A DNA stretch of 64,000 nt from Candidatus Eisenbergiella merdigallinarum (GTDB lineage: Bacteria; Bacillota; Clostridia; Lachnospirales; Lachnospiraceae), in assembly GCA_019119355.1 (NCBI GenBank), contig DWXE01000039.1, positions 62,001 through 126,000 of the forward strand, in the 5' to 3' direction. The notes below the pieces were generated by a model. That model was not told where the DNA came from and did not search any database. It was given only the letters and a program-made list of their open reading frames with translations. How positions within the stretch are numbered: position 1 is the first letter of the stretch; each line of letters begins with the position of its first letter. Made by a program: the position numbers and the translations under genes. Below are positions 12,180-45,480 of the stretch, piece by piece.

Positions 12180-13568
12180 TTATGAAGGGTCATGCGTCTG
12201 CCAGTATTCGGTGATGGCCGCCGCTACATCCTCGATGGTCTCCTGCCCGGCCAGATACGCCTGCATGTGAGGAGCCATTTCGCTGGTGTGGTCCGTAGGA
12301 AGGGTAAACGGAGCGTTGTTCACCGTATTGCCCGCATCGATGTAGGTCTTGAGCACGGCGTTGACCGGATTGACGGGCGCGTTCGGGTTGTTGGTGAACG
12401 CCACCACGATCTCCAGATCGTTCACCAGTGCGGACTGCCCTTCTTCGGAATAGACCAGCCAGTTCAGGAACTCCTTCGCGGCCGCCTGCTGTTCCTCCGT
12501 AGCCACTTCCCTGTCGATGACGATCTGTTTGGAAGCGAAGGCGTAGATCTTGCCCTGCATATCCGCATCGTTCTTCGGGATGGGCATCACGCCGTAGTCC
12601 ATGGATCCGTCCACATAGGTGGACATGTCGGGCCATACCCAGGTGCCGTTGATCCAGAACGCCGCTTCGCCTTCCGCGACGTAGGAAGCGTTCAGGTCGT
12701 AATCCGCCGCCAGCGGGTCGTCCTTGTTGATGTTGTACTCGATGAACAGGTCATAGTCCTGGAACAGGTTCTGGAACATTGCGTTTTCCATCACATCAGC
12801 GCCGCCCTTGATGTCCTCCACGAACTGATAGGAGCCCTCCGCGGTGCCGTCCTGGAAGTTGAACAGGTTGGAGCCCAGCAGATGTCCGCCCAGAGACCAG
12901 GTTTCCTGATTGAGGATCACCGGGTTCTCCATGCCGCCCGCGCGCAGCGTTTCCAGCAGCTCCTGGAAAGCTTCGGGGGAGCTGTAGTTTTCGGGAACGA
13001 ACTCCTCGCCGAGGACGTTCTCGATAGCCGTCTTATTGTAAACCATACCGGGCGCTTCCACGCACAGCGGGAATCCGTACAGGACGCCGTTCACCTTCGT
13101 CCCCATGGTATCTCCGCCGACCGCTACCCAGTCCTCGCCGGACAGATCCAGGAACCTCTCTTCGCCCATCTCCGTCACGTTACCGGGGTCTACGATGGCC
13201 AGCGCCGGAGGATCGCCGGCCGCGTATCTCTGCGCCAGCATATCTGCCGGGGAATCGGTCTCATATACTTCGAAGGTCACATTATGAGCGTCTCCCCATA
13301 ACGCGGTCACCTCTTCCAGCGCGTCCTGGATCTCGGGCTTGGAATTCATCATCGTCAGGGTAATCCCGCCGTAGTCGGTAGCGTCTTCCTCCGCAGCGGC
13401 GGCTTCGCTCCCTTCCGCGGTATCGGCGGGCGCCGCTTCTTCCGCGACGGCGCTCTCCGGCTGCGCTGCAGCAGGGGTGGATTCCTCAGCCTTGTCCGAA
13501 CCGCACGCGGCCAGGGATGCCGTCATGGTCAGCGCCATGATGAGAGCAAGTGCTTTCTTCGCTTTCAT
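12180..13568 (-). CDS. Extracellular solute-binding lipoprotein, sugar ABC transporter
   Basis: Lipobox LAACGSDKAEE; family 1 solute-binding protein-like sequence upstream of two permeases. Confidence 0.93.
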   Translation of the reverse strand: MKAKKALALIMALTMTASLAACGSDKAEESTPAAAQPESAVAEEAAPADTAEGSEAAAAEEDATDYGGITLTMMNSKPEIQDALEEVTALWGDAHNVTFEVYETDSPADMLAQRYAAGDPPALAIVDPGNVTEMGEERFLDLSGEDWVAVGGDTMGTKVNGVLYGFPLCVEAPGMVYNKTAIENVLGEEFVPENYSSPEAFQELLETLRAGGMENPVILNQETWSLGGHLLGSNLFNFQDGTAEGSYQFVEDIKGGADVMENAMFQNLFQDYDLFIEYNINKDDPLAADYDLNASYVAEGEAAFWINGTWVWPDMSTYVDGSMDYGVMPIPKNDADMQGKIYAFASKQIVIDREVATEEQQAAAKEFLNWLVYSEEGQSALVNDLEIVVAFTNNPNAPVNPVNAVLKTYIDAGNTVNNAPFTLPTDHTSEMAPHMQAYLAGQETIEDVAAAITEYWQTHDPS

Positions 13569-13615
13569 AATTTGTTCCTCCTTCGTAAAGTGTTCGTCAG
13601 CTTTCGCTTGATCTC

Positions 13616-13653
13616 AGCATACTATCAACTTGTATAATTGTCAACGTTTACAA
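13616..13653 (-). promoter_or_regulatory. sigma-A promoter with LacI-type operator overlapping the -35
   Basis: Minus strand TTGACA-17-TATGCT (13616-13644); near-palindrome TTGTCAACGTTTACAA at 13638-13653. Confidence 0.7.
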
Positions 13654-13784
13654 TATCATAATTATAGACAAACTTTATAATTCATTTTCAGCTATTTTCC
13701 ATAAGATCGGTTCTCATGGCGCTGTTTTTTCTATTTTTGCCGTATATTTTGAACATTTTTGCAATTTTTGCATCTTTAATAGTC

Positions 13785-13827
13785 TTGACTTTTTTCGCGC
13801 GCAGAAATATATTGTAAACGTATACAT
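13785..13827 (+). promoter_or_regulatory. sigma-A promoter with LacI-type operator overlapping the -10
   Basis: TTGACT (13785)-17-TATATT (13808); TTGTAAACGTATACAT at 13812-13827. Confidence 0.7.
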
Positions 13828-13855
13828 AAAAAATGAAAAAAGGAGGGTTTTCAGC

Positions 13856-14812
13856 ATGAACACAAAATATCTTGGCAAAAGCGGCGTTGCGGTTTCCGAT
13901 CAGATTTTCGGCTGCTGGGCCATCGGCGGCACTTATTTCACCGGCGCCGAAGACGGGCAGTCCGAGGCCGCCATCCGGGAAGCCATCGACGCCGGCATCA
14001 CTTCCCTGGACACCGCCTACATTTACGGAAAGGGGCACTCCGAACAGATTGTGGCCCGCTCCATCAAAGGATACGACAGGACGAAACTGACCCTCATCAC
14101 CAAGCTCTGGAAGGACCGGATGGCGAAGGATCTGGTGGAAACCGCCTGCGATCAGAGCCTGAAGGATCTGGATACGGATTATATCGACGTCTATTTTATC
14201 CACTATCCTTCCGACACAGGCGTCCCCATCGCCGACACCATGGAAGCTATGATGAAGCTGAAGGAAAAGGGGAAGATCCGCTGCATCGGCGTTTCCAATT
14301 TCAGCAGGGACCAGCTAGAGGAAGCCTGCAAATACGGGCAGATCGACGTGATCCAGCCCTGCTACAGCCTCGTCTGGCGCTTTCTGGACCTGGAGGAGAT
14401 GGATTTTTGCGTTCAAAACGGGATCGGGATCATTTCCTACTGCACCCTGGCCCAGGGAATCCTGACCGGAAAGTTCAGCCGGGAAACCCGTTTTTCCAAA
14501 GAGGACGGACGAAGCCGCGCCCCTCTCTTTCAGAGCCCTTATTATGAAGGCGCGCTGGACGTTGTGGAAAAGCTGCGCCCCTTTGCGGAAAAATACGGCG
14601 TCACCCCGGCCCAGCTGTCCATCCGCTGGGTGATGCAAAAAGCGGGGATCACGGCCCCCATCGTGGGCGCGAAAAATCCCGCTCAGGTACAGGACAACGC
14701 CAAAGCCTCCCGCTTCGCGATTTCGGACGAAGATTTCGCCGCCATGGACGCCGTCAGCCGGGATTTCGCCTATGGGCTCCCCCGGTTTAAAACATTTTTT
14801 TCTGCCAGATAA
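13856..14812 (+). CDS. Aldo/keto reductase
   Basis: GITSLDTAYIYGKGHSEQIV, GVSNFSRDQLEEA motifs. Confidence 0.93.
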   Translation: MNTKYLGKSGVAVSDQIFGCWAIGGTYFTGAEDGQSEAAIREAIDAGITSLDTAYIYGKGHSEQIVARSIKGYDRTKLTLITKLWKDRMAKDLVETACDQSLKDLDTDYIDVYFIHYPSDTGVPIADTMEAMMKLKEKGKIRCIGVSNFSRDQLEEACKYGQIDVIQPCYSLVWRFLDLEEMDFCVQNGIGIISYCTLAQGILTGKFSRETRFSKEDGRSRAPLFQSPYYEGALDVVEKLRPFAEKYGVTPAQLSIRWVMQKAGITAPIVGAKNPAQVQDNAKASRFAISDEDFAAMDAVSRDFAYGLPRFKTFFSAR

Positions 14813-14829
14813 AAAAGGAGGATTGATCC

Positions 14830-15684
14830 ATGCCGCTCACAAAGGTAAAGGACCTGCTGGTCCACGCGCAGGAACACGGCTACGGCGTGCCCGCCATCAA
14901 CGTGTTCGACTATAACAGCATCAAGTTCGCAGCCATGGCCGCGGAAGAAGCCCGAATGCCCCTGATCATCCAGTATTTCCCGGGCTTCGACGTGCACGCC
15001 CCCCTGGCCGATATCCGCGATATCGCCGTGGCCTTCGCCCGCCGCGCCGCCGTCCCCATCGCGGTCCATCTGGACCATTCCAGGAGCTTTGAAATCGCCG
15101 TTTCCGGCCTGGGCGCGGGGTTTCCCTCCGTCATGGTGGACGGATCGGCCCTGCCCTATGAAGAGAACGTTTCCCTGACGGCGGAAGTGGCCCGCTGCGC
15201 CCACGCCATGGGCGTGGACGTGGAAGCGGAGCTGGGGCACGTGGGCGTGGGAATGAACCTGGAGGACATGACCGATGCCGCCCGTTTCACGGATCCGGAT
15301 CAGGCCGTGGACTTCGTAAGCCGCACGGGCGCGGATTCCCTGGCCATCGCGGTGGGCAACGCCCACGGCAACTATATCAGGACCCCGGAACTGGATTTCG
15401 ACCGGATCCGGAAGCTTCGGGAGGTCCTGGACATTCCCCTCGTCATGCACGGGGGCTCCGACATTCCCGACGACCAGCTGGCCCGCGCCGTCCGCTGCGG
15501 CATGTCGAAATTCAACATCGCCACCGAATACCAGCGGGCCTTTTACAATAACATGAAGGAATTTTTCGCGGACGGATCCAACGCCGGCGCCTATTTCAAA
15601 GCCCTGCGCGCCATCGAACGGCCCTGCATCGATTTCGTGAAGTCCAAAATCGACGTCCTGAATCCGGACGGCTACCGTCTGTGA
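14830..15684 (+). CDS. Class II fructose-bisphosphate (ketose-bisphosphate) aldolase family
   Basis: VPAINVFDYNSIKFAAMAAEEAR, HLDHSRSFEIA, MVDGSALPYEENV, LVMHGGSDIPD. Confidence 0.92.
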   Translation: MPLTKVKDLLVHAQEHGYGVPAINVFDYNSIKFAAMAAEEARMPLIIQYFPGFDVHAPLADIRDIAVAFARRAAVPIAVHLDHSRSFEIAVSGLGAGFPSVMVDGSALPYEENVSLTAEVARCAHAMGVDVEAELGHVGVGMNLEDMTDAARFTDPDQAVDFVSRTGADSLAIAVGNAHGNYIRTPELDFDRIRKLREVLDIPLVMHGGSDIPDDQLARAVRCGMSKFNIATEYQRAFYNNMKEFFADGSNAGAYFKALRAIERPCIDFVKSKIDVLNPDGYRL

Positions 15685-15709
15685 AGGGGATGCAGAAACG
15701 GAGGCTGCC

Positions 15710-16723
15710 ATGACAGAAAAAACGTTTGACGTCATCGGGATCGGGCATCCCTGTGTCGATTATCTGCTCCACATCGACAGCCTGCCGCGCTCCAACGAAT
15801 CCCGCTACGCCCGGGAGGGGAGCTGGCAGTGCGGCGGCAAGGTGACCACGGGCCTGGTGGCTGCCTCCCGGTGCGGGCTTTCCTGCGCCCTCATCGGCGC
15901 CATGGGGGACGATCTGTTCGGCCGGTACTGTTACCGGGATTTTGAGCTTCACGGCATCGATCTCTCCCAGGCGAAAATGAGGGAGGGCTGCACCACGGAC
16001 ATCGGCGTCGTGCTGTCCGAGGAGGAGACGAACGGAAGGAATATTTTTTACCGGAGAGGGAGTTACGAGAGGATCCGGCAGGACGAAGTGGACCTCCCCT
16101 TTCTGGAACGGGGGCGGTATCTCTTCCTCGCCCTGGCGGACGAACTCCACGTGACCGCCGCCAGATACGCGAAGGAACACGGCGTGAAGGTGCTCATCGA
16201 CGCGGACAGCCGCCCCATGGACGAGTATGAGGAAATCCTTCCCTGGGTGGACTACTTCGTGGCTTCGGAATTCGTATACAAGAGCAGTTTTTCCGACTGC
16301 CGCTACAGGGAACACATGGAGGAAATCCTCCGGAAAGGGCCCTCCGCCGCAGTGTTCACCTTCGGGTCGAAGGGCTGCCGGGGCCTGTCGGAAGAAGGGT
16401 ATTTTGAGCTTCCCGCCTTCCGGGTTCCCGTGGTGGATACGGTGGGCGCGGGGGACACCTTCCACGGCGCGTTTTTCTACGGCCTTCGCCGCGGGCTCTC
16501 CCTGGAGGAAACCGCCCGGTTCGCCAGCGCCGTAAGCGCCGTAAAATGCACCTGTATCGGCGGCAGAGCGGGAATCCCCACCCCGGATATCGCCAAGAAG
16601 TTTATGGAAACCGGAATCATCGACGACGCGTCGCTCCGGGAACGGGTTGCCCGCTATTCCTGGGGGCTGGACGATTTTTTCCGGGAGGTCATGGAACTTG
16701 AAAAGAAAAAGAACCCGGGATGA
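15710..16723 (+). CDS. PfkB/ribokinase-family carbohydrate kinase
   Basis: GGKVTTGLVAASRCG near the N-terminus and VVDTVGAGDTFHGAFFYGL signature. Confidence 0.93.
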   Translation: MTEKTFDVIGIGHPCVDYLLHIDSLPRSNESRYAREGSWQCGGKVTTGLVAASRCGLSCALIGAMGDDLFGRYCYRDFELHGIDLSQAKMREGCTTDIGVVLSEEETNGRNIFYRRGSYERIRQDEVDLPFLERGRYLFLALADELHVTAARYAKEHGVKVLIDADSRPMDEYEEILPWVDYFVASEFVYKSSFSDCRYREHMEEILRKGPSAAVFTFGSKGCRGLSEEGYFELPAFRVPVVDTVGAGDTFHGAFFYGLRRGLSLEETARFASAVSAVKCTCIGGRAGIPTPDIAKKFMETGIIDDASLRERVARYSWGLDDFFREVMELEKKKNPG

Positions 16724-23730: not shown

Positions 23731-25161
23731 TTATTTTTCCGCCATCGCCATGGCCTTCACATTGCTGAATTTCGCCTTCCCAAAAGAAAAGAGACCGAAT
23801 TCCCCTTCCCTGCAGTCATACATCCGAAAGCTCAGGGCCGCCTCTTCGTTCACCCACACGGTCCCGGCGCTCTTTTCCGTCACGATTTCCATCCGGTAGA
23901 CTCCGTCCTCCGGAATCCGCAGGGCCGTTTCCAGCTCCACGTCGTAGGGGAAGGCCTTCCCTCCCTCTTCCGACTGGCGCAGCCACGACCGGAAGACCAG
24001 CCGCCGGCGCTGCGGCTCCACGTAAAGAAAATACCCCCTCGACAAATCCCGTTCCAGATGCAGCGCCACGCCGGCACAAACGGCTTCTCCCGCTTCCATT
24101 TCCACCGAAAAGCGGCCGGTTTCGGGCATCGGCCCGCACAGCGCGGTCTGGCAGCTCTCCTCCTGCGCCGCCACAAGCTGCCCGTCCCGTTCTCTCCACC
24201 CGGGCGTGACCGGCTCCATCCTGCGATTCGACAAAACGGGGAAAAACGATTCCGCGCCGTCCGGGAGGCAGAGCCCCAGATCTCCGTCCGGCTGCTGCGT
24301 CAGCTGGTGAATGACCATATTTCCGCCCCAGTCCCAGGTCCGGTAATCCTGCCCCGGCTGCCGCTTTGGCCAAAATCCGAACAGGTCCTCTTCCTTCGTG
24401 GGATTCCAGCCGAACAGGCAGCGGCGGTTCCCGTCGTCTGCGGTCTTCGCCGCATAAAAGGCGCGGCCGTCCAGCCTGTGATTTTTGGGGATCTTCCACC
24501 CCGTTTCCCCGATCCGGCGCTTCACATAACGGGTTCCGAACAGGGTGGTATAGGAAGAAAAGACCAGATATTCCCACCCGCCCATCCGGAAGAAATCCGG
24601 ACACTCGCAGGCTCCGGCAAAGCGCCGGGGATTGTAGAAGGGCTCCCGGTATTCCCAGTTCTTCAGATCCTTTGAGACGCACAGCCCCACGCATCCCGTC
24701 TGAGCATGCCCTTCGTTCGCCCTGGCCGCCACCAGCATCCAGTATTCTCCCAGATCCTCCCGCCGGATTATCCTGGGATCCCTCCAGTCCGGGCCGCTGT
24801 AAATGACCCCGTCCGGGCCGAAGGTATCCTCTTCCACGAAGTCCCATCGATCCAGACTTTCGTCCCTGCTGACGTAATGGGTGATCTCCTGATTTCCCTC
24901 CGGAAAACGGCAGGCGAACAGATGCCATTTTCCTTCCGCATAAATCAGATCCCCGGTCCCTCCCAGGACGCCGACGGGCGTCTCCGGCCCCATATGGATC
25001 AGATCCGCGCTGTCCATCCTGTGCCATCCAAAAACCGCGTCCGGCCGCTTCGGATCCTTCCAGGACTTCAAGTAAAAGATCCTCCACTTTCCGTCGATAA
25101 ACTTCGGGATCACATCCCCGCATCTTGCTCCGGGCGCTCTGTAAAAATAGGTCTCTCCCAT
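23731..25161 (-). CDS. GH32-like glycoside hydrolase, divergent
   Basis: WRDPRII and ECPDFF GH32 motifs with a C-terminal beta-sandwich-like domain; start MGETYFYRAPG at 25161 (track ORF over-extends). Confidence 0.78.
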   Translation of the reverse strand: MGETYFYRAPGARCGDVIPKFIDGKWRIFYLKSWKDPKRPDAVFGWHRMDSADLIHMGPETPVGVLGGTGDLIYAEGKWHLFACRFPEGNQEITHYVSRDESLDRWDFVEEDTFGPDGVIYSGPDWRDPRIIRREDLGEYWMLVAARANEGHAQTGCVGLCVSKDLKNWEYREPFYNPRRFAGACECPDFFRMGGWEYLVFSSYTTLFGTRYVKRRIGETGWKIPKNHRLDGRAFYAAKTADDGNRRCLFGWNPTKEEDLFGFWPKRQPGQDYRTWDWGGNMVIHQLTQQPDGDLGLCLPDGAESFFPVLSNRRMEPVTPGWRERDGQLVAAQEESCQTALCGPMPETGRFSVEMEAGEAVCAGVALHLERDLSRGYFLYVEPQRRRLVFRSWLRQSEEGGKAFPYDVELETALRIPEDGVYRMEIVTEKSAGTVWVNEEAALSFRMYDCREGEFGLFSFGKAKFSNVKAMAMAEK

Positions 25162-26048
25162 CGTTTTCCTCCTGTTTCTCTCCGCATCCGTTCTTCCATT
25201 TCCCGCAGGTCCGCGCCCCGGTTCCATTCGGGGGCTTCCTTTCCCATGGCCCTGTATTTCGACGCCGCATGGTTGGCTACTGCGAAACAGTCCACCCGGA
25301 CCACGTTGTTCAGCTTTTCCATCAGCCTGCGTCGGGCCTCCATTTCCTCCGGCGCATCGTTGACTCCCGCTGCCAGCGGCATTCTTAAAATCACCGGCTT
25401 TTTTGCTTCCGACAGCCGGATCAGATTTTCCGCCGCAAGCCTTCCGTCTGCGCCCGTGTATCGGACCGCCCGCTTCGGATCCATGCACTTGACGTCCACC
25501 AGAAACAGGTCGATCATGGGGAGGAGGGGAAGGATTTCGGACCATTTTACCTGCAGGGATGTATCCATGCAGACGTTCAGCCCCCGGTCCCTGCACAGGG
25601 AAAGAAATTCCCCCAGAAAATCCGCCTGCATAAGCGGTTCCCCGCCGGAGCAGGTCACCCCTCCTTCCTTCCCGTAAAACTCCCGGTCCAAAAGCACCTG
25701 TTCCAAAAGTTCTCCCGATTCCACTCTCCGGCCGCAGACCGCCATGGCCTGTGCGGGGCAGCTCAGGGCGCATTCCTCCATCCTGTCGCAGGAGAGACAG
25801 GCGCTTACGTCTACCGTATGCCGCCCCCCTTCGAACCGGTGCGCCCCCTTTTTACAGACGGCCAGACAGCTCCCGCAGCCGATGCATTTCTGTTCGAAAT
25901 ACAGCATCTCCGGCGCAGCTTTTATGGTTTCCGGATTGTGGCACCAGGCGCAGGACAGGGGACAGCCCTTGAAAAAGACCGTCGTCCGGATCCCCGGCCC
26001 GTCGTGAATGCAAAACCTCTGGACTTCCGCGATCATCGCCTGTTTCAT
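25110..26048 (-). CDS. Glycyl-radical enzyme activating protein (radical SAM, PflA-like) with ferredoxin-type clusters
   Basis: CPLSCAWCHNPET (CxxxCxxC), CIGCGSCLAVCKKGA ferredoxin motif, GGVTCSGGEPL. Confidence 0.93.
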   Translation of the reverse strand: MKQAMIAEVQRFCIHDGPGIRTTVFFKGCPLSCAWCHNPETIKAAPEMLYFEQKCIGCGSCLAVCKKGAHRFEGGRHTVDVSACLSCDRMEECALSCPAQAMAVCGRRVESGELLEQVLLDREFYGKEGGVTCSGGEPLMQADFLGEFLSLCRDRGLNVCMDTSLQVKWSEILPLLPMIDLFLVDVKCMDPKRAVRYTGADGRLAAENLIRLSEAKKPVILRMPLAAGVNDAPEEMEARRRLMEKLNNVVRVDCFAVANHAASKYRAMGKEAPEWNRGADLREMEERMRRETGGKRWERPIFTERPEQDAGM

Positions 26049-28102
26049 CCGTTGTCCCCTCCGCCCATCCGGCCGATGATATGTTCCTGCAGCTCCCGGT
26101 CCAGCTCCACGAAACGGGCGTTGAACCCCCAGACCCGCACGATCAGATCCCTGTATTTCTCCGGCTCCTTCTGCGCCGCCCGCAGCGCCTTTTTATCGTA
26201 CATGGCCAGATTGAGCACCGGGACGTGGGCCCTGCGCGCTCCCTCCATCAGACGGTACAGTATTTCCTCCCGGTCCGCCCCCATTTCGAATCCGCCCTGA
26301 TCCAGCGTCAGCTGGAGGGGGGACGAGGCGTATCCGTCCCGCATGGGGAGCCTGGAAGCGGACTCCACGACGGCCGTAGGCCCCTTCTGCGCCGCCCCGG
26401 GCGTGGGACAGCAATGTTCGCCGATGGGATCCCGAAACCTCCTGCCGTCCGGGGTGGCCCCCACCGTGTTGGCGAAGATTCCGAAGTCGATGTTGTAGAG
26501 CCCGGGCCTCAGCGGCTTTGTTCCGCAAAATCCGTTCACCCTCCGGATAAAATGTTTTCCGATCTCCGCGGCCAGGCCGTCCGTCCTCTCATCCCCGTTC
26601 CCGAATTTCGGAACGTGTAAAAGCCTTTGCCGAAGGGCTTCCCAGCCCTGAAAATCGGCTGCCAGCGCGCGTTTGAGTTCCGCCGCCGTACACCATTTGC
26701 GCACAAAGACGCACTCCTCCACCGCCCGCAGGCTGTCCGCCGCCGTGGTGATGGTTCCGGACAGAAGCTGGTAGTTGGATACGTCGAATCCCCCTCCTCT
26801 CAGGGGATCCTTTCCCGTGACCGCGCTTCGCCAGAACGATCCTCCCACCAGAGGCGAGGTCACGGTATTCGTTTCATCCTCCTGCATCTTCTCCTCGATC
26901 CGCAAAAACTGCTGATCCAGCTGGAAATCCAGCTGACGGAAAAATGCGTTCAGAAACTCCTCAAAGCTCTTCATTTCCTCAAAAGCGCCGGACCGAAACC
27001 CTTTTACCAGAGAGGTCTTCGGCGTAAACAGGGGACCCTGCGCGCTGTTCTTCCGCATCCGCACCGGAACCACGCAGGGGTTTTCTTCCCCGTTAAACAG
27101 GGTCAGTTCCACCGTTTTCACCATCTCATGCTGCCAGAATACGATCCCGCTCTTCTGATCGATCACCGTCTCGGTACATCCGTCGTTGGCATAGCGGCAG
27201 GCGTCGACATGGGAAATCCCCGCCCGCTCCATGGCCAGAATGATATTTTCGTCGAAGTACAGGGTCGGCTGCCCCTTTCCCTTCGCCAGAAGGCGCACAC
27301 AGGCGCGGATCAGGGATTTCGGCGTATTTTCATGGATCCTGACGTTGAGGTGCGGTTCCGCGTCCCCCGCCCGCTCATAAGCTTCCAGAAAGATCCATGT
27401 CAGCTCGTTGGTCTGATCCTTCCCGGCTTCGTTCTGGCCGGAAAGCATCAGATTGCGCAGGGTGTCCCCTGCCCGGAGCCGGTTGAGATTCCGGTAAAAC
27501 CGCAGCACGGCTTCCATGGCCTCTTCCCGGTTCCAGCTCCCGGCCCTGCATTCCATGCGATAAAAGGGATAGAGGGTCTGATCCAGCCTCCCGATGCATC
27601 CTACCCCGAAGGGGCTTCGGGCCAGATACAAAAACCAGAACAGCTGAAGCCCTTCCTCAAAGGTAGCGGGCCTTTTTTCGGAAATCCGCCCGCAGATCCC
27701 TGCGATCCTTTGCAGGCTGTTTTTTCGGTTCGCATCCGCCTCCTGCTCCGCCAGCCGTTTTGCTTCCCGGGCATGGCGCAGGATCAGCCTTTGCACCGCC
27801 TTATAAACCGTGTGGATGCCCCGGCGGTAAGCCGCCGTTTCCTCCGTATCTTCGCTTCGTCTCCGCCCGGTCCATTTCAGGATTTCTCCGATCCCGTGGT
27901 ACAGGCACCCTGTTCCGAAGGGATAGTGGGCGTTGTCCGACTCCAGGATCAGCCTTACCGATTCCGCCCTTCCCCCCGGCAGGTAAAACCCTTCCGGAAC
28001 GCCTTCTCCCGAAATCCTGATTTCACAGCCGTCCAGCAGTTCTGCGTACGCCTGCGCGCACCGGTCTATGTTCTTCTCCTTTTCTCTTTCCATTTCCGTC
28101 AT
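26045..28102 (-). CDS. Glycyl radical enzyme (PFL-like superfamily), substrate unknown
   Basis: C-terminal RVWGFNARFVELDRELQEHIIGR glycyl-radical loop and DGCTET Cys-x-Glu active-site motif; overlaps the activase start. Confidence 0.9.
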   Translation of the reverse strand: MTEMEREKEKNIDRCAQAYAELLDGCEIRISGEGVPEGFYLPGGRAESVRLILESDNAHYPFGTGCLYHGIGEILKWTGRRRSEDTEETAAYRRGIHTVYKAVQRLILRHAREAKRLAEQEADANRKNSLQRIAGICGRISEKRPATFEEGLQLFWFLYLARSPFGVGCIGRLDQTLYPFYRMECRAGSWNREEAMEAVLRFYRNLNRLRAGDTLRNLMLSGQNEAGKDQTNELTWIFLEAYERAGDAEPHLNVRIHENTPKSLIRACVRLLAKGKGQPTLYFDENIILAMERAGISHVDACRYANDGCTETVIDQKSGIVFWQHEMVKTVELTLFNGEENPCVVPVRMRKNSAQGPLFTPKTSLVKGFRSGAFEEMKSFEEFLNAFFRQLDFQLDQQFLRIEEKMQEDETNTVTSPLVGGSFWRSAVTGKDPLRGGGFDVSNYQLLSGTITTAADSLRAVEECVFVRKWCTAAELKRALAADFQGWEALRQRLLHVPKFGNGDERTDGLAAEIGKHFIRRVNGFCGTKPLRPGLYNIDFGIFANTVGATPDGRRFRDPIGEHCCPTPGAAQKGPTAVVESASRLPMRDGYASSPLQLTLDQGGFEMGADREEILYRLMEGARRAHVPVLNLAMYDKKALRAAQKEPEKYRDLIVRVWGFNARFVELDRELQEHIIGRMGGGDNG

Positions 28103-28204
28103 ATTCCTCCACCGCTGTCATGAAAACTGCAGGATGCCGAAGGGCCGCCGCACAAAACGCCCTCTTTTGACCTTTGCGCGGCAGCCCTTCCGATTCCCTT
28201 TGCG

Positions 28205-29866
28205 TTATTTTGCCAGCGCTTTCTGATAACGGTCATAAGCTGCCTGCCATGCCGCTACCACTTCCGAAAGCCCCATGTTATCCAGATCCTGCAGGTACTG
28301 ATCCCACTCTTCTTCGATACCGCCGTCCCGAAGCCAGTGAGCGACCTTCTCTTCCGTCAGCGCTTTGATATCGCTGAGCTTGTCGTTGATCACTTCGATT
28401 TCTTCCGCCGTGTTGGTGACGGAAGGATAGTATTCCGTGCTGTCCACATACTGGAACCAGAAATCGTTCAGATCGTTCAGGCGTTCCTGCGCTCTGTCTT
28501 CCATGTAATAATAAGTCCCGTAGTCCTCAGCCAGCTGCTCCGTAGGCCCGAGAAGCTCGGATTTGGATTTCAGTTCGCCCGCGGTTTCGCCTTCCTGAAG
28601 CTCCCTCATGGAGTAGCAGCCGTTTTCATCGGGCTCCTCATCCCAGTAAACGCCGATGGGGCCGTAAATGGCCTGCATGCTGTTGATGGGATCATACATC
28701 TGATCCACCCATTTGAGCAGCAGTTCCGGATTTTTACACGCGTTGGTCACCGCAAAGCTGTTGTGGCTGGTGGTTCCCATTTCGTTCAGATTCACGCCGT
28801 AAGTCCCGTCAGGGCCTTCCAGGATCGGAAGATACTCATAGCTCTCCGCTCTCTCTTCCCCTACGACCTCCGGGATTTCCCACCAGACGAATACGCCCAG
28901 CCTGGGATCCTCTCCGTTGCCTTTCGCGATATACTGGCTGGAATCCTGGGAAAAGATCTCGATATCGATCAGCCCTTCTTCAAACCATTCGTGATAATAG
29001 GCGATGGCATTTTTGTACTCTTCCGTAGCCGCCTGATAATATACCTTACCGTCCTCGATGGCCCTGTGGTCGGCCTGATAATCCGTGCATCCGAAGGGCG
29101 CCAGCAGGGTGCCGATGCCCGCGCACCAGGATCCGTTCTTCTCCGGGAAAATGAAGGAGAGAGGGATTTCATCCGTGGGGTCCCCGTTGCCGTTTACGTC
29201 GTTCTCCTTAAACGCGACCAGGACGTCGTGCAGTTCGTCCACCGTGGTGGGCATTTCCATGTCTACCGCTTCCAGCCAGTCCGTGTTGATGGCCGTAAAC
29301 TGCGGGATCGCGCCGATGTAATACGTGTTTCCGTCGGAATACTGAAAGCCCATTTCGGAGATTCCGGGCAGCCCGTAGATGTGCCCGTCCGGCATGGTAC
29401 AGGTCGCCAGCATTTCCGGGCGCTTCTCCACGATCTTCATCAGGTTGGGCATGGTCTCCTCGTTGATGTAATCCTCCAGGGGAATGAGCAGGCCGTTGCC
29501 GCCGTAGGTCAAAAGCTCGTTGTCCGTCAGGGAAGCCGCCATCAGGGCGTCCGGAAGATCGCTGCCCGCGTTCAGGATCAGGTTCTTTTTCTCCGTCAGG
29601 GTATCTCCGGAAACGCAGTTCCATTCGATGGTCACTCCCATGGCCTCGTTCATCTGCTGCACCAGGGGCTTTTCGCTGTTATCCGGAGACAGGGCGCTGA
29701 TCCCCGCAAAAATGCTGAAGTTCGTCTGTTCTTCCCCCGAAGAAGCGCTGTCGCCTCCGTTGCCGCCGGAGCAGGCCGCTGCCGAAACCGCCATGACCGC
29801 CGCCAGTCCCAACGCCGTCATCCTCTTTAACTGTTTCATCTTTTTCCTCCTTTTCATCCGTTTCAT
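28205..29866 (-). CDS. Extracellular solute-binding lipoprotein (LplA/YtcQ-like)
   Basis: Lipobox SAAACSGGNGG; followed in sequence by LplB/LplC-type permeases. Confidence 0.9.
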   Translation of the reverse strand: MKRMKRRKKMKQLKRMTALGLAAVMAVSAAACSGGNGGDSASSGEEQTNFSIFAGISALSPDNSEKPLVQQMNEAMGVTIEWNCVSGDTLTEKKNLILNAGSDLPDALMAASLTDNELLTYGGNGLLIPLEDYINEETMPNLMKIVEKRPEMLATCTMPDGHIYGLPGISEMGFQYSDGNTYYIGAIPQFTAINTDWLEAVDMEMPTTVDELHDVLVAFKENDVNGNGDPTDEIPLSFIFPEKNGSWCAGIGTLLAPFGCTDYQADHRAIEDGKVYYQAATEEYKNAIAYYHEWFEEGLIDIEIFSQDSSQYIAKGNGEDPRLGVFVWWEIPEVVGEERAESYEYLPILEGPDGTYGVNLNEMGTTSHNSFAVTNACKNPELLLKWVDQMYDPINSMQAIYGPIGVYWDEEPDENGCYSMRELQEGETAGELKSKSELLGPTEQLAEDYGTYYYMEDRAQERLNDLNDFWFQYVDSTEYYPSVTNTAEEIEVINDKLSDIKALTEEKVAHWLRDGGIEEEWDQYLQDLDNMGLSEVVAAWQAAYDRYQKALAK

Positions 29867-29908
29867 TTTGATTCGCTGCTCGCGTTCCGTTTGTATTTTC
29901 AGAGCCGG

Positions 29909-30817
29909 TTATCCTTTTACGGCGCCGGCCATGAATCCTTTTTCAAAATATTTCTGCACGAACGGGTAGGCCACCAGCATGGGGACCGATCCCACCACGA
30001 TGGAAGCGCACTTGATCAGCTCCGTGATCTTATTGGCTTCCGCATAACCGCCGTCCATGTTCCCCATCATCGTCGCCGTTGCCTGGCTCTGGATCAGCAC
30101 CTGGCGCAGTGCAAGCTGCAGGGGATACTTCGCCTTTTCATTCATATAGATCAGGGCGGTGAACCAGTCGTTCCAGTACGCTACCATGGTGAAAATCACC
30201 ATGACGGCCAGAATGGGCTTTGCCAGAGGCAGGGCGATCTTCACGAAGGTCCTCAGATTGCTGCTGCCGTCGATGGCCGCCGCCTCGTACAGCTCCTCCG
30301 GAATGCTGCTTTCGAAAAACGTCCTTGCCACGATCACGTTGAACACCGCCACCCCGCCGGGCAAAATCAGCGCCCAGACGCTGTTGAGCATTCCCAGCTT
30401 GGAAACCACCAGATAGGTGGGGATCAGCCCGCCGTTGAAATACATGGTGAACACGTAAAAGACCATGATGGCTTTCCGGAAGGGCAGCGTCTTTTTGGAG
30501 ACGCAGTACCCGGTGGTGATGATCAGCGCCACGCTGATGACGGTTCCCAGAACCGTGTAGTAAATGCTGTTCAGATAGCCCGTGGCGATGGACTCCTCCC
30601 GAAAGACCCGGAAGTATCCTTCCAGCGTGATTTTGGAAGGGAGGAGGAACGTCTTCCCGCCGTATACCTCATAGGGATCCGAAATGGAAGCGATGAGGAC
30701 GTAGTACAGCGGATAGGCCACCACGACGATCAGCAGGATCAGGAGCGTATAATTGAAAATATCGAATACCTTGTCCGAAGAGATCTTCTTCGTTTTTGTG
30801 CTCATCGAGCCGCGCAT
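29909..30817 (-). CDS. Carbohydrate ABC transporter permease (LplC/YtcP-like)
   Basis: EAAAIDGSSNLRTFVKIALPLAKP EAA loop. Confidence 0.93.
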   Translation of the reverse strand: MRGSMSTKTKKISSDKVFDIFNYTLLILLIVVVAYPLYYVLIASISDPYEVYGGKTFLLPSKITLEGYFRVFREESIATGYLNSIYYTVLGTVISVALIITTGYCVSKKTLPFRKAIMVFYVFTMYFNGGLIPTYLVVSKLGMLNSVWALILPGGVAVFNVIVARTFFESSIPEELYEAAAIDGSSNLRTFVKIALPLAKPILAVMVIFTMVAYWNDWFTALIYMNEKAKYPLQLALRQVLIQSQATATMMGNMDGGYAEANKITELIKCASIVVGSVPMLVAYPFVQKYFEKGFMAGAVKG

Positions 30818-30833
30818 TGTTTTCCCTCCCCCC

Positions 30834-31799
30834 TTAAATAAAGCTCACGTTGGAAAGCTTTTTGCAGATCCGGTTCACCACCACCAGAAGCACGATGTTC
30901 ACCGCCGTGTTGAACAGCCCAACCGCGGTGGAAAAGCTGTACATGGCTTTCAGCATACCCTGTTCGTACACATAGGTGGCGATGATTTCGGAAGTTTCCT
31001 TGTTCAGGCTCGTCTGCAGCAGATACGCCTTTTCGAATCCCACGTTCATCAGGTTTCCGAACTGCATGATCAGCTGGATGACGATGACCGGAATCAGCTC
31101 CGGCACATCGATGTGTAAAATCCTCTGCCAGGTGCTGGCCCCGTCCACCCTGGCCGCTTCATGCAGGGAAGCGTCCACGCTGGAAAGGGTGGCCAGATAG
31201 ATGATGGTTCCCCATCCTGCGTCCTGCCAGATGCTGGAGGCGATGTAAATCGTCCGGAAGGCCGACGCGGAATCGATGAAGTTCACCGCTTCCTTCGCTC
31301 CGAAAGCCTGGGCGATCACGTTGATCAGCCCTCCGTAAGGGGAAAGGAAAATCCTCAGCATACCGCACAGGATCATGATGGAAATGAAGTGCGGCGCATA
31401 AATGATCGTCTGCGTGACCCTCTGGAACTTTTTGGACTTCACCTGATTGATGAGCAACGACAGGATGATGGGAATCGGAAAAGTCCATAAAATGCTGTAA
31501 AGGCTCAAAAGCACCGTATTCCGGATCATTCTCACGCTGTTATAGCTGTTGAAAAAGCGTTCGAACCATTTCAGCCCCACCCAGGGGCTCCCGAAAAATC
31601 CTTCCACCGCGTTGTAATCCCGAAACGCGATCTGTACGCCGTAAATCGGAACGTACTTGAAAATAATCGTCAGGATAATGCCGGGCAAAAGCAGAAGATA
31701 AAATTCCCAGTGCTTCATCATCTGCTTCGCCAGGCTCTTGTGAACCGGCACGGCCGCGGCCGTCGTTTTCCTTTTCACTGCCATCGCTCTTCCTCCCAT
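30834..31799 (-). CDS. ABC transporter permease (LplB/YteP-like)
   Basis: KYVPIYGVQIAFRDYN...; EAARVDGASTWQRILHIDVPELIP EAA loop. Confidence 0.93.
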   Translation of the reverse strand: MGGRAMAVKRKTTAAAVPVHKSLAKQMMKHWEFYLLLLPGIILTIIFKYVPIYGVQIAFRDYNAVEGFFGSPWVGLKWFERFFNSYNSVRMIRNTVLLSLYSILWTFPIPIILSLLINQVKSKKFQRVTQTIIYAPHFISIMILCGMLRIFLSPYGGLINVIAQAFGAKEAVNFIDSASAFRTIYIASSIWQDAGWGTIIYLATLSSVDASLHEAARVDGASTWQRILHIDVPELIPVIVIQLIMQFGNLMNVGFEKAYLLQTSLNKETSEIIATYVYEQGMLKAMYSFSTAVGLFNTAVNIVLLVVVNRICKKLSNVSFI

Positions 31800-31874: not shown

Positions 31875-31929
31875 TGAAACGTTTCATATTTTATGATTTT
31901 ATTTTAGTCCCACGCTCCCCGTTCGTCAA
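31875..31929 (-). promoter_or_regulatory. sigma-A promoter of ABC/GRE operon with downstream LacI-type operator
   Basis: Minus strand TTGACG-17-TAAAAT (31901-31929); perfect palindrome TGAAACGTTTCA at 31875-31886; related half-site AACGTTTCATA at 32020-32030. Confidence 0.7.
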
Positions 31930-32135
31930 GGATAAAATCCATATTTTTTGGTAAAAGAGTATATTTTATTACATTTATACAAAAATATCGCCGTCGTTTT
32001 ATCTGTTTTCACAGTATATAACGTTTCATATATATGATATGATCCATGTATCAGCACAGGAGAATTTCTTTTCTCTGTTCAGAAGGGGATTTTTCGTATA
32101 AAATAGAACTATCATTCAGGAGGATCTTTCGAGCT

Positions 32136-33146
32136 ATGACGAAAAAAAATGCGCCCACCATGAAGGATGTGGCGAGAGAGGCAGGCGTGGCCCTGGGAAC
32201 GGTTTCAAAAGTCATCAACGGAATTCCCGTCAGCGAGGAATATCGCAGCCGCGTCCTGGACGCGATCCGGACTTTACATTATGAAGTGAATACCTATGCC
32301 AGGGGGCTCAAAACGCAGAAGACGAACCTCATCGCGCTGATCATTCCCAATACCATCAATCCCTTTTTCGCCTCCTTCGCGGATTATATCGAGGGGGCTC
32401 TGTACCAGAGAGGGCTCAAGCTGCTGCTGTGCTGCGCGGACGGAATCCCGGAAAAGGAAATCGCCTATCTCAATCTGGCGACCCAGAACAAGGTGGACGG
32501 AATCGTCGCCCTGACCTATTCCGACGTGGGAAAATACATCGCGAAGGATATCCCCATGGTGGTCTTCGACCGCTTTTTTGACAACCACATCATCCCGCGG
32601 GTGGCCTCCGACAATTTCGCCGGCGGTTGTATGGCGGTAGAAAAGCTCCTGGAGCTGGGCTGCACCCACCCCGTCTATATCCGCTTTCATTCCGTTTTTC
32701 CCGGAGAATCGGACAAGCGGATGGACGGTTATCTTCACGCCTGCAAAAAACACGGCCTCGAGCCGGATTATCTGAATATGGAGGACTGTCCGGAAATGCT
32801 GGATTACATGCGGGATTTTCTGGAGCGCCACAAAAGGGCCGACGGTTCTCTGACCTTCGACGGCGTCTTCGCCCATACCGATTACCACGGCTATCATTTT
32901 CTCAGGCTTCTGCGCGGCCAGGGATACCGGGTCCCGGAGGACGTACAGATCATCGGCTTCGACGGCATCCGCCAGTTCGGCGGGGAGCAGGAAGACCTCT
33001 TCGTCTCCTCCATCTGCCAGCCGGTGAAGCAGCTGGCGGAAAAGTGCGTGGAAATTCTGGTAGCCCCGGACCGTTCCATGGTTCCCAGCCTGACGCTGCT
33101 GCCCGTATCCTACCAGTATGGGGGAACCACGAAGCGGGAAGGATGA
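32136..33146 (+). CDS. LacI-family transcriptional regulator
   Basis: MKDVAREAGVALGTVSKVINGIPVSEE HTH; ATG at 32136 with AGGAGG. Confidence 0.94.
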   Translation: MTKKNAPTMKDVAREAGVALGTVSKVINGIPVSEEYRSRVLDAIRTLHYEVNTYARGLKTQKTNLIALIIPNTINPFFASFADYIEGALYQRGLKLLLCCADGIPEKEIAYLNLATQNKVDGIVALTYSDVGKYIAKDIPMVVFDRFFDNHIIPRVASDNFAGGCMAVEKLLELGCTHPVYIRFHSVFPGESDKRMDGYLHACKKHGLEPDYLNMEDCPEMLDYMRDFLERHKRADGSLTFDGVFAHTDYHGYHFLRLLRGQGYRVPEDVQIIGFDGIRQFGGEQEDLFVSSICQPVKQLAEKCVEILVAPDRSMVPSLTLLPVSYQYGGTTKREG

Positions 33147-39612: not shown

Positions 39613-41136
39613 TTATTCTATCTTCAGTTCGCGCCACGCCGCTTCGAACTCCGCCCTTCCCTGCGATCCGAACCGGATTCTGTCGGCCTTTTCATCTGTA
39701 TAGGTCAGACAGCTCATGGCCTGTTCCCCTCCGTTGACGAACACCTCGACGCCGTAGCGATCCATCACGATCCGCAGCTCGATCTCCCCGCCTCGCGAAG
39801 CCACATAGCAGCTGCGGCTGCTGACCGTATCGTGGATCTGCCCTCCGGACCAGGTGCGGTCGAAAGTCAGCGCGCTGCTGCCCGGCTCATAATACAGCAT
39901 CGTCTTATGGCTGTCGTCCGCCGCCAGATCGATCTCAAACCGACGGTAATCCCCGGCTTTCACCCACACCGTCATATCGAACTGCCTGCCGCGGATCCCC
40001 GGGATTTCCAGCCCCTTTTCCTCGCTTGGAACGGGCAGAGGATCCCGGCCGTACACGAAGCTTCCTCCTTCCACGACAACCGGGCCCGTCTCCACCGCTT
40101 TTCCGTAATAGTTTTCCAGTTCCCGCACAGGGAGCTGATACAACTTATCCCCTTTCAGGTGCAGTTCCCGGGTGATCGTCATGAATCCGCACCAGGAGAA
40201 GCCCTCCGGCGTCAGATCGTTGTCCCAGCTCTTCATCCAGCCGATCATCACCCGGCGGCCGTCCGGCGTCAGCAGCGTCTGAGGGGCGTAGAAATCCGGG
40301 TCGTAATCGATAGCTCTGGCTTCCGGGACGATCCGGCGAAATTCGTGGGTTTCGGAATCGTAGCTTCCCACAAGATAGATGGTCCCGTTTCCGTTATGAA
40401 ACTCCAGCCCCTTCGCCTCCATGAACTGGGGGGAAGCGATCAGCACCTGACGGCCGTCCAGGGGGAAGAAGTCCGGACACTCCCACATCCTCCCCTCTTC
40501 CCGCTTTCCCCGTTCCAGGACGGTTTCAAAGGCCCAGTTTTCCACATCCTCAGATGAAAACAGCACAGCCTGTCCACAATCGTCCTTTGTTTTATTCCCA
40601 ACCACCGCATAAAACCGGGAACCTTCCTTCCAGATCTTCGGATCCCGAAATTCCTTCCGGTCGCTGTCCTCCGGCAAAAGATCCGGACAAATTGCGGGAT
40701 TTTTCTCCGATTTTATGAAATCCCGGCCGTCGCCGAAAGCGACGCACTGAGTCTGGCTCACGAGGCGCTTCCCGCCTTCCTCCGATTCCCGCACTCCCGT
40801 ATAGAGAAGGATCTGCCGCCCCCCATCCTCCAGAGCGCTTCCAGAAAAGCACCCCTGTCCGTCCCATTCTTCGTCCGGGGCCATGGCGCAGGGCAAAAGC
40901 TCCCAGGAAATAAAATCCTTCGTCTTCGCGTGCCCCCAGTGCATGGGCCCCCATTTCGTGCTGTAGGGGTGATATTGAAAAAACAGATGATATTCCCCCC
41001 GAAAGCAGGAGAATCCGTTGGGATCGTTGATCCATCCTACGGGGCTGCAAAAATGGAAATCCGGCTTTTGTCCCACCGGGATTTTTCCGCTCTCCAAAAG
41101 CTCGAATTCCCTTGCCCGCTGCAATTTTTCGCTCAT
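39613..41136 (-). CDS. Glycoside hydrolase family 32, copy 2 (507 aa)
   Basis: WINDPNG, FRDPKIW, WECPDFF; same length as copy 1; start MSEKLQRAREFEL at 41136 (track ORF over-extends). Confidence 0.95.
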   Translation of the reverse strand: MSEKLQRAREFELLESGKIPVGQKPDFHFCSPVGWINDPNGFSCFRGEYHLFFQYHPYSTKWGPMHWGHAKTKDFISWELLPCAMAPDEEWDGQGCFSGSALEDGGRQILLYTGVRESEEGGKRLVSQTQCVAFGDGRDFIKSEKNPAICPDLLPEDSDRKEFRDPKIWKEGSRFYAVVGNKTKDDCGQAVLFSSEDVENWAFETVLERGKREEGRMWECPDFFPLDGRQVLIASPQFMEAKGLEFHNGNGTIYLVGSYDSETHEFRRIVPEARAIDYDPDFYAPQTLLTPDGRRVMIGWMKSWDNDLTPEGFSWCGFMTITRELHLKGDKLYQLPVRELENYYGKAVETGPVVVEGGSFVYGRDPLPVPSEEKGLEIPGIRGRQFDMTVWVKAGDYRRFEIDLAADDSHKTMLYYEPGSSALTFDRTWSGGQIHDTVSSRSCYVASRGGEIELRIVMDRYGVEVFVNGGEQAMSCLTYTDEKADRIRFGSQGRAEFEAAWRELKIE

Positions 41137-41195
41137 AACCTTCTCCTTTCGAAGCGCTCTGTCCATGGATCGGATGCGCCATCTCGCCCGGGCCC

Positions 41196-42499: not shown

Positions 42500-43027
42500 A
42501 TGATCAGGCGCGCGCAAAAAAAAGATGCCTCCCGCCTCGCGGAAATTCTGATTTTCGCGAAGCGGGCGGCATACCGTCCCATTTTTCAAGATGATATTGT
42601 TTCTTTCAACGAAATGCAGGTGCTGGATCTGGCCCTGCGCTTTCAAAACGATCCCGACGCCTTAAACGGGCTGTTCGTATACGATGACGGCATCCTGCGC
42701 GGGCTTCTCCGCATGGACGATCCCGCGGGCGCCTCTCCCTCCCTGCAGCTGAAGGAACTCTATGTGGATCCGTTCTTCCAGGGGCAGGGAGTGGGCTCAA
42801 AGCTGATGAAATACTTTCTTTCGGAAGTTTCCAGCCGAAACGCGAAGGAAGCGTTTCTCTGGGTTCTGGAAAAAAACGCGAAAGCCCGGGCTTTCTATGA
42901 ATCCTTCGGATTTTTTCCGGAAGGGGAACGGAAATTACAGCCGGGAACCCCTGAATTTCTGCTCAAATACCGTTATTCCTCTCCTTCCATCTTCTCCATG
43001 GCGTCTTCCATATCGTCGAATTCCTGA
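42500..43027 (+). CDS. GNAT family N-acetyltransferase
   Basis: [32 protein letters not shown] at 42500 with AAAGGAG; 3' end overlaps gyrA. Confidence 0.88.
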
Positions 43028-45480
43028 TTTCCATCGGAAACCTTTTCCCGCACTTTGGCGATCTGGGCCACCTTTACGCCGGGATCCAGGTTGATCAGCT
43101 TCACGCCGGAGGTAATCCTTCCGAGAATGGAAACGTCTTCCATCCGGATCTGGATGATGATCCCTTCCGTGGTGATCATCATGATTTCATGGTCGTCGTT
43201 CACCGCCTTGACGCCCACCACATCTCCGGTCTTTTCCGTGATCTTATAGCACTTCACGCCCTTTCCGCCGCGGTGTTGCAGGGTGAACTCATCCAGGGAG
43301 GTTCGCTTGCCCATGCCCTGTTCGGACACGATGAGCAGGGTTTTTCCCTGATGATCCAGCTGCATTCCCACCACTTCGTCGCCGTCCGCCAGGGTCATTC
43401 CGATGACGCCCATGGACATCCGTCCCGTGGCCCTCACATCCGTCTCCTGGAAGCGGATACACATGCCGAACTTCGTCACCAGGAAGATTTCGGAATTTTC
43501 ATCCGTGATCTTCACCTCGATGAGCTCGTCGTCCTCCCGGAGGCTGATGGCCGCCAGGCCGTTCTTGCGCACGTTGCTGTATTCCAGAATGGAGGTCTTT
43601 TTCACGATTCCCTTCCGGGTGACCATGAACAAGTTCTTATCCTCTTCGTAATCCTTCACCGGGATGATGGCGGAAATCTTTTCTTCCGGATTGAGCTGCA
43701 GCAGGTTGATGATGGCCGTCCCCCTGGCCGTCCTGCCCGCCTCCGGGATCTCGTAGGCTTTCAGCCGGTAAACCCGACCGAAATTGGTGAAAAACATCAC
43801 ATAGTGGTGGGTGGAGGTCATCAGCAGATCCGCGATGAAGTCGTCCTCGATGGTCTGCATTCCCTTGATGCCTCTGCCTCCCCGGTTCTGGGCCCTGAAA
43901 TTGTCCACGGTCATCCGCTTGATATAGCCCAGATTCGTCATGGCGATGACGGTGTTGTCCCTGGGGATCATATCCTCCATGGAAATATCGTATTCATCGA
44001 ATCCGATCTTGCTTCTGCGGTCGTCCCCGAATTTCTCCTTCACGATGAGGATCTCTTCTTTGATGACGCCCAGCAGCCGCTTTTCATCCGCCAGAATGGC
44101 CTTCAGATCCGCGATTTTGATCAGCAGCTCCTGATGCTCCGCTTCCAGCTTCTCCCTCTCCAGTCCGGTGAGGGCGCGCAGGCGCATGTCGATGATGGCC
44201 TGGGCCTGCATGTCCGTCAGGCCGAACCGCTGGATCAGCCGTTCCTTGGAAATCTGAGGGGTCTGGCTGGAACGGATGATCTGGATCACTTCGTCGATGT
44301 GATCCTGGGCGATGAGCAGGCCCTGCAGAATGTGATCCCGTTCTTCGGCCTTGTTCAGATCGTACTTCGTCCTTCTGGTCACCACATCCTCCTGATGGCG
44401 GATGTAATGCTGGAGCATCTGCAGCAGATTCAGCACCTTCGGCTCGTTGTTCACCAGGGCCAGCATGATGACGCCGAAGGTATCCTGCATCTGGGTATGC
44501 TTGTAGAGCTGATTCAAAATGACGTTAGCGTTGGCGTCCCTGCGCAGCTCGATCACCACCCGGGTTCCCTCCCGGTTGGACTCGTCCCTCAGGTCCGTGA
44601 TCCCGTCGATCCTCTTTTCCTTGTGAAGGTCCGCGATCTTCTCGATGAGCCTGGCCTTGTTGACCATGTAGGGAAGTTCCGTGACCACGATCTGGGATTT
44701 TCCGTTGGGCAGGGTTTCGATATCCGTCACGGCGCGCACGCGGATCTTGCCGCGCCCCGTCCGGTACGCCTCTTCCGCTCCCCGGGTGCCCAGGATGACT
44801 CCCCCGGTAGGGAAATCCGGCGCCTTGACGATCTGCATCACCTCTTCGATATCCGTATCCCGGTCTTCCAGGATCCGGTTGTCTACGATCTTCACCACGG
44901 CGTCCACCACTTCCCGCAGGTTGTGGGGCGGGATATTGGTGGCCATCCCAACGGCGATGCCGGAAGTTCCGTTCACCAGCAGGTTGGGATAACGGGAAGG
45001 CAGAACCACGGGCTCTTTCTCCGTCTCGTCGAAGTTGGGCTCGAAGTCCACCGTGTTTTTGTTGATGTCAGCCAGCATTTCCATGGAGATTTTGGAAAGG
45101 CGGGCTTCCGTGTAACGCATAGCCGCAGGGCCGTCCCCGTCCTCGGATCCGAAGTTCCCGTGGCCGTCCACCAGCGGATAGCGGGTATTCCATTCCTGGG
45201 CCATATTCACCAGAGCGCCATAAATGGAACTGTCCCCGTGGGGATGGTATTTACCCATGGTATCGCCCACGATACGCGCGCATTTTCGATGCGGCTTATC
45301 CGGCCCGTTGTTCAGCTCGATCATGGAATAGAGCACGCGCCTCTGAACGGGCTTTAAGCCGTCCCTGACGTCCGGCAGCGCCCTGGACGCGATGACGCTC
45401 ATGGCATAATCGATATAAGAAGTCTCCATCTTCTTTTTCAGATCGACCTCTTCTATTCTGTCAAAAATATTCTCTTCCAT
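42973..45480 (-). CDS. gyrA: DNA gyrase subunit A
   Basis: [61 protein letters not shown]. Confidence 0.98.

Follow-up and report, generated by a model that had tools for sequence, protein, structure and literature searches.

The 64,000-nucleotide stretch analysed here from the genome of the gut bacterium Candidatus Eisenbergiella merdigallinarum (contig DWXE01000039.1, positions 62,001 to 126,000 of the forward strand; referred to as the window in the rest of the text) carries a minus-strand operon in which a short, oxygen-sensitive glycyl radical enzyme (GRE) is encoded together with its radical SAM activase, an ATP-binding cassette (ABC) importer and two hydrolases of the GH32 type. The short GREs constitute a genuine GRE subfamily that is conserved in fructoside operons and apparently has not been described before. 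The best explanation overall, to which we give somewhat better than even chances, is that these enzymes make up a new eliminase subfamily and would cleave a C-O bond of a sugar or polyol derived from, or still contained within, imported fructosides.

Short glycyl radical enzymes are linked to GH32 genes

Scanning 84,980 species genomes with a four-sequence alignment of the GRE returned 50 loci, at which the genes of the relatives were called in a codon-usage-based pass. Fifteen of these loci, the window and L017-L030, constitute clade A, which includes Eisenbergiella tayi, Clostridium sp. KNHs205, Anaerocolumna, other Clostridia and a Treponema; L031-L040 constitute its sister clade B. A GH32 gene lies near the GRE gene at 14 of the 15 clade-A loci compared to none of the 25 other GRE loci in the scan (P = 6e-10, Fisher's test, a value that overstates the association since the loci are related by descent and the window locus is longer than the others). 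The single clade-A locus devoid of GH32, L026, is on a contig that ends just past the activase gene. The GH32-like gene was found at 11 of the 15 loci and so was the family of the substrate-binding lipoprotein. Loss of this neighbourhood in relatives, which the initial annotation of the window had named as evidence against its proposal of a radical sugar pathway, was not what we found, as the architecture recurs across several genera and two phyla (Bacillota and Spirochaetota). We consider a role of the GRE in a fructoside pathway to be likely.

The cassette is nevertheless infrequent. In an even sample of the family (299 genomes), close relatives of the short GRE were confined to the window and one clade-B member (36% identity), the three remaining matches being ordinary long GREs, and the other 391 genomes of an order-level sample contained no close relative at E <= 1e-80. 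Within the genus, 3 of 13 genomes gave a GRE match, including the window and one clade-B member. This distribution is patchy, as expected for a mobile specialist function. Rarity and patchiness within the genus would also be seen if the GRE had joined the operon by accident or were a non-functional passenger, an alternative that we regard as very improbable given the recurrence of the architecture in two phyla, the 4-nt overlap of the GRE and activase genes and the intact catalytic residues of all covered members (see below).

The predicted active site is of the eliminase type

Pfam searches detected a PFL-like domain (281 bits) and a Gly_radical domain (46 bits) in the GRE, of which the C-terminal glycyl radical loop reads RVWGFNAR (residues 656-663). 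At 685 residues, it is shorter than typical GREs (765-830). The stop-to-stop frame of 690 codons (about 677-701 in most clade-A relatives) is barely longer than the gene, indicating that the shortness is real and does not result from a miscalled start. Members of the clade are ~100 N-terminal residues shorter than usual GREs; compared to YbiW and PflD, they lack the segment between the [IV]PxxGxLAG and DNxH stretches (roughly 80-90 residues) as well as the canonical N-terminus. An AlphaFold2 model of the GRE based on the subfamily alignment (predicted local distance difference test score 91.2, predicted template modelling (TM) score 0.92) matched GRE eliminases in a Foldseek search, with glycerol dehydratase 1r8w as the top match (TM score 0.81 by query length, 0.71 by target length).

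The CXE motif, defined together with its role in GRE eliminases in earlier work (PMC7077986), is present as C309-T-E311 within NDGCTE. Its Cys and Glu are invariant in 23 of 23 aligned sequences, and the catalytic residues are intact in every covered clade member. His59 aligns with His164 of glycerol dehydratase, the beta-1 His. HypD variants H160Q and E436Q are inactive (PMC7077986), and HypD His160, CutC Asp216 and IslA Gln193 represent one common substrate-contacting site on strand beta-1 (PMC8473560); judging from its shared position, glycerol dehydratase His164 would correspond to the same site as HypD His160. Retention of both the conserved His and the CXE motif supports a chemistry of the eliminase type, with dehydration or C-O cleavage by a radical mechanism, and we think it very likely that the GRE operates in this way. 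The initial annotation had proposed this class of reaction within a radical sugar pathway; the class thus gains support, which the substrates it named and the complete pathway do not.

Clade signatures consist of a Trp preceding the radical Gly (Ala in 5 of 5 references), Y[AT]NDGC[TC]E, an EH..TPG loop and DNxH[FY]P. The clade-specific polar residues Asn306-Asp307 beside the Cys and His563, along with Asn537 and Asp539 of clade A, would fit a hydroxyl-rich substrate.

The short enzymes are separate from characterised glycyl radical enzymes

Maximum-likelihood phylogeny placed the window GRE in a single clade of 25 short GREs (support 100/100, branch 0.94), which excluded YbiW, PflD, glycerol dehydratase, HypD and CutC; for the last three, partial sequences recovered from printed HMMER alignments were used, and the branch of CutC is long. 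The GRE therefore joined none of the characterised subgroups tested in the tree, an outcome on which the initial annotation had staked its proposal. The protein passes no NCBIfam equivalog cut-off, the best score being 246.5 bits compared to cut-offs of at least 1000 (HypD, CutC, HpsG/HpfG, IAD and HPAD), and its best identity to a solved structure is 27%. A literature search, which included GREs with glycoside hydrolases, anhydroglucitol, fructofuranosidase and inulin and did not cover most subscription journals, returned no paper on the short-GRE subfamily.

Identities with characterised enzymes were considered and rejected or set apart. Pyruvate formate-lyase was discarded because DGCTE replaces the adjacent Cys-Cys pair and TIGR01255 scored 53.8 bits for a cut-off of 994. 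HypD (trans-4-hydroxy-L-proline dehydratase) has the CXE motif and the beta-1 His in common with the window GRE, but the two share 26% identity, Asp278 and the surroundings of Thr645 differ, and HypD belongs to proline metabolism whereas the window GRE belongs to a sugar operon. YbiW and PflD, the GREs acting on 1,5-anhydroglucitol-6-phosphate and 1,5-anhydromannitol-6-phosphate, are likewise sugar-linked and of the eliminase type. In E. coli, however, pflD is found with phosphotransferase system (PTS) genes, and fsaA/fsaB, coding for fructose-6-phosphate aldolase, flank ybiW/pflD, while the window operon contains an ABC importer and GH32 genes instead. An identity with either enzyme was rejected as both fall outside the 100/100 clade and no PTS or fructose-6-phosphate aldolase gene is found among the annotated clade-A operon genes.

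The B12-independent glycerol dehydratase of Clostridium butyricum (1r8w) resembles the GRE in its fold, CXE motif, beta-1 His and radical Gly. It differs by its sequence (27% identity), by ~100 additional N-terminal residues and by its substrate residues, as well as by the fructosidase operon in which the GRE is encoded. The equivalents of His281, Ser282, Tyr339 and Asp447, which we take to be the glycerol-binding residues of the structure, are all replaced in the GRE, and this identity was also rejected, glycerol dehydratase being outside the clade. The same comparison bears on an alternative in which the GRE would use a small diol (glycerol or 1,2-propanediol, for example), structurally unlinked to the fructoside, whose dehydration would serve simply as an electron sink during fructan fermentation. 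Glycerol dehydratase is the best match among solved structures in both sequence and fold, and YqhD-like dehydrogenases, a kind encoded in several relatives (see below), reduce small aldehydes. With all four substrate residues replaced, and with a dedicated LacI operator and a tight GH32 linkage that favour one shared substrate, we nonetheless judge this alternative improbable.

A near-private predicted operator unites the operon

A divergent lacI gene of the same family as that of the window is found at L017, L018, L019, L020 and L021, and LacI regulators occur at 10 of the 15 clade-A loci. The palindrome TGAAACGTTTCA, the predicted LacI operator, is the sole match in the window at one mismatch or fewer (0.15 expected). 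It is also located 5' of the LplB gene at L017 and L019, in the form TGAAACGTTACA at L021 and in a one-mismatch form at L020; none was detected at L018. Conservation of the element thus extends over several genera. A scan of four whole genomes (2.8 to 7.6 Mb) for a wider regulon returned essentially the GRE locus alone: apart from this locus, the exact motif was matched once, in the genome of KNHs205. With no wider regulon in evidence, the operon is probably self-sufficient in the specific functions required. This near-private predicted operator binds importer, GRE and hydrolases into one unit.

At L019, which originates from a relative of the same genus, the genes past lacI (L019:1998-5031) code for a ROK kinase, a GH4 glycosidase and a NagB-like sugar-phosphate isomerase. 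This set suggests that the substrate is a mixed glycoside.

Organisation of the operon

The initial annotation had described a minus-strand train of LplB- and LplC-type permease, lipoprotein, GRE, activase, GH32-like and GH32 genes facing a divergent lacI gene, and every one of these genes lies where it had been placed (Table 1). The interval that it had delimited, 23731-31799, is correct for the genes within it and leaves out the last GH32 gene and the operator. The overlaps that it had reported were recovered as well: the GRE and activase genes share the 4 nt ATGA, and the ATG of the GH32-like gene at 25161 is 52 nt within the activase gene.

Table 1. Coordinates of the operon and associated features in the window.
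Feature	Position	Strand	Basis
LacI-family regulator, divergent from operon	32046-33146 (alternative start 32136)	plus	Pfam LacI + Peripla_BP_3
Predicted LacI operator palindrome TGAAACGTTTCA, between lacI and lplB	31875-31886	.	Motif search
ABC permease, LplB type	30834-31799	minus	Pfam BPD_transp_1; conserved in relatives
ABC permease, LplC type	29909-30817	minus	Pfam BPD_transp_1; conserved in relatives
Substrate-binding lipoprotein, 553 aa, lipobox VSAAAC	28205-29866	minus	Read from sequence
Hairpin between lipoprotein and GRE genes	28115-28204	minus	Minimum free energy -46.2 kcal/mol, z = -5.8 vs dinucleotide shuffles
Short GRE, 685 aa; Cys309, Glu311, His59, radical Gly659	26045-28102	minus	Pfam, tree, AlphaFold2 model, Foldseek, residue table
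Radical SAM GRE-activating enzyme, two-cluster ferredoxin insert	25110-26048	minus	NCBIfam TIGR02494
GH32-like hydrolase (BT1760-like family), 476 aa, cytosolic	about 23731-25161	minus	Pfam GH32N partial; GDV, RDP, EC motifs
GH32 beta-fructofuranosidase (ScrB family), 507 aa	22182-23705	minus	Pfam GH32N 320 bits; TIGR01322 368.7 bits, above cut-off
GH172/DUF2961 gene with one in-frame TAA	41200-42302	minus	Sole DUF2961 of source genome
Second GH32, N-terminus near-identical to operon GH32	39613-41166	minus	Pfam; read directly; after GH172 gene

The activase exhibits Pfam Radical_SAM and 4Fe-4S domains and scored 286.6 bits against TIGR02494 (glycyl-radical-enzyme activating protein), above the cut-off of 174.35. 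By sequence reading, both operon hydrolases contain all three GH32 motifs (Asp nucleophile, RDP Asp and EC Glu) and neither has a visible signal peptide; given the lipobox of the substrate-binding lipoprotein, import precedes cleavage. With the L021 homologue as a query, the solved structures nearest to the GH32-like family were the GH32 entries 6r3r and 8a9y, presumably the BT1760 endo-levanase, in agreement with the BT1760-like C-terminal domain that Pfam assigns to this family. A Pfam search with the lipoprotein returned no match. Regarding the hairpin that separates its gene from that of the GRE, stable hairpins are common downstream of highly expressed binding-protein genes.

Elsewhere in the window, positions 9337-16723 contain a second ABC sugar importer with an aldo-keto reductase, a class II fructose-bisphosphate aldolase and a PfkB kinase, forming a separate sugar locus. 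Positions 42973-49880 code for GyrA, GyrB, a RecF-like protein and DnaN, so the window likely spans or adjoins the replication origin.

Partner enzymes in clade-A relatives

Additional genes recur at the clade-A loci: DUF2961/GH172 (7/15), PfkB kinase (7/15, counting the window gene that lies outside the operon), iron alcohol dehydrogenase (7/15) and PF00756 esterase (5/15); a GH51-type arabinofuranosidase is also present at L018. The dehydrogenases are nearest to YqhD (PRK15138, 254-271 bits, under the 645-bit cut-off) and the PfkB proteins to fructokinase (179-193 bits, under the 450-bit cut-off). The esterase genes stand beside the operons at L024:12869-13669, L027:7805-8596, L028:14085-14840, L029:10083-10808 and L030:17674-18399, and their recurrence hints that some of the imported fructosides are acylated.

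The PfkB genes are what would be expected if the substrate of the GRE were a phosphorylated sugar made by this kinase, by analogy with the anhydroglucitol-6-phosphate pathway, and characterised sugar GREs do act on 6-phosphates. We give this possibility a slim chance: the importer is of the ABC type with no PTS, the operons of the window, L017, L018, L019 and L020 contain no PfkB gene, and clade-A operons are devoid of a fructose-6-phosphate-aldolase-like gene, as opposed to the fsaA/fsaB genes beside ybiW/pflD.

The founding member of GH172, encoded in an operon with LacI, ABC, GH32 and DUF2961 genes, interconverts inulobiose and difructose dianhydride I (PMC8605356). The layout of this Bifidobacterium dentium operon is matched in the relatives L018, L021 and L024, but no GRE, activase or alcohol dehydrogenase is described for it, unlike clade-A operons. 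In the source genome of the window, three of the four GH32 genes and the only DUF2961 gene are within ~14 kb of the GRE gene, GH172 being ~10 kb from the operon. The in-frame TAA of this GH172 gene is either a broken gene or a sequence error, and the GH32 gene that follows it is possibly part of the same substrate system. For difructose anhydrides, which the initial annotation had listed among candidate substrates, the recurrent GH172 genes are an independent lead; however, the GH172 copy that we tested is closer to the exo-alpha-D-arabinofuranosidase 8ic8 than to the difructose dianhydride I enzyme. It is thus uncertain which alpha-furanoside GH172 cuts, and we rejected pinning the substrate to difructose dianhydride I by this route.

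The GH172 genes of the relatives, in pointing to anhydride-like alpha-furanosides, are also relevant to the alternative that the GRE itself cleaves the glycosidic or anhydro C-O bond of an intact imported fructoside or dianhydride by radical elimination, much as E. coli YbiW and PflD open anhydrohexitol phosphate rings. Radical C-O ether cleavage of a sugar has precedent in these enzymes (ligand complexes 8id7 and 8id0), and the GRE gene is ahead of or amid the hydrolase genes at several loci. This alternative is conceivable, yet we consider it unlikely, as GH32 and GH172 suffice for such substrates in other bacteria and the tree places the GRE apart from YbiW and PflD.

The sister clade B

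GH32 genes are near the GRE gene at only one of 11 clade-B loci, a count that also takes in L048. Three clade-B loci (L034:8420-16976, L037:1760-10469 and L033:6325-11821) code for a xylulokinase-like FGGY kinase, DeoC (above the NCBIfam cut-off) and an iron alcohol dehydrogenase; a second, longer GRE is also present at L034 and L037. In clade B, a pentitol or its phosphate could be dehydrated to 2-deoxyribose-5-phosphate, from which DeoC would release acetaldehyde for reduction to ethanol by the iron alcohol dehydrogenase, a route that would account for this gene set. Judged by its gene content, clade B points to sugar or polyol dehydration as the common chemistry of short GREs. At L031:8480-11809, the clade-B GRE gene adjoins genes for a GDPD/CN-hydrolase fusion and a GH123-type protein.

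A proposed pathway of radical C-O cleavage

We propose that fructofuranose-containing glycosides or oligosaccharides would be imported by the dedicated ABC importer under control of the local LacI repressor, then hydrolysed in the cytosol by the two GH32 enzymes, with the help of GH172 in relatives, to release fructose and/or another sugar or polyol. The activase would generate a radical on Gly659, giving rise to a thiyl radical on Cys309 that would abstract a hydrogen from a hydroxyl-bearing carbon of a neutral sugar or polyol, while Glu311, aided by His59, would deprotonate that hydroxyl. The adjacent C-O bond would then break, most likely with loss of water, to yield a deoxy-aldehyde or ketone. 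In relatives, this carbonyl product may be reduced by the YqhD-like iron alcohol dehydrogenase of the operon, and the GRE branch would act as an electron sink balancing the fermentation of fructose via fructokinase. We give even odds to the substrate being a neutral sugar or polyol in free form.

Several observations weigh against this pathway. The window operon itself contains neither an iron alcohol dehydrogenase nor a kinase gene, and the former is adjacent in only about half of the relatives. The difructose anhydride pathways of Bifidobacterium dentium and Blautia run without a GRE, which is thus not required for difructose anhydrides as such. The cassette is rare, with a close relative, a clade-B one, in 1 of 298 other family genomes. 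Finally, the GRE might act on some unrelated compound that is imported alongside, the role of GH32 being limited to carbon supply.

More tentatively, and with less than even confidence, the GRE might cleave a C-O bond of a furanose sugar or fructoside that is not phosphorylated, within a dedicated anaerobic pathway on the fructan side, which would make it the first radical enzyme to do so; all short GREs might be sugar or polyol dehydratases, and those of clade B might feed deoxy-sugar phosphates to DeoC.

Significance

Among the reactions of anaerobic metabolism, some of those performed by GREs rank with the hardest, and an unexpected pathway has come to light with each of several recently characterised subfamilies. 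Here, gene order, a private predicted operator and consistent partner enzymes all link a compact and distinct subfamily to a single carbohydrate system. Since its carriers include the named strains Eisenbergiella tayi DSM 26961 and Clostridium sp. KNHs205, radical chemistry in fructan use is directly testable. If true, the proposed function would add a second sugar-directed GRE lineage next to the anhydroglucitol-phosphate enzymes.

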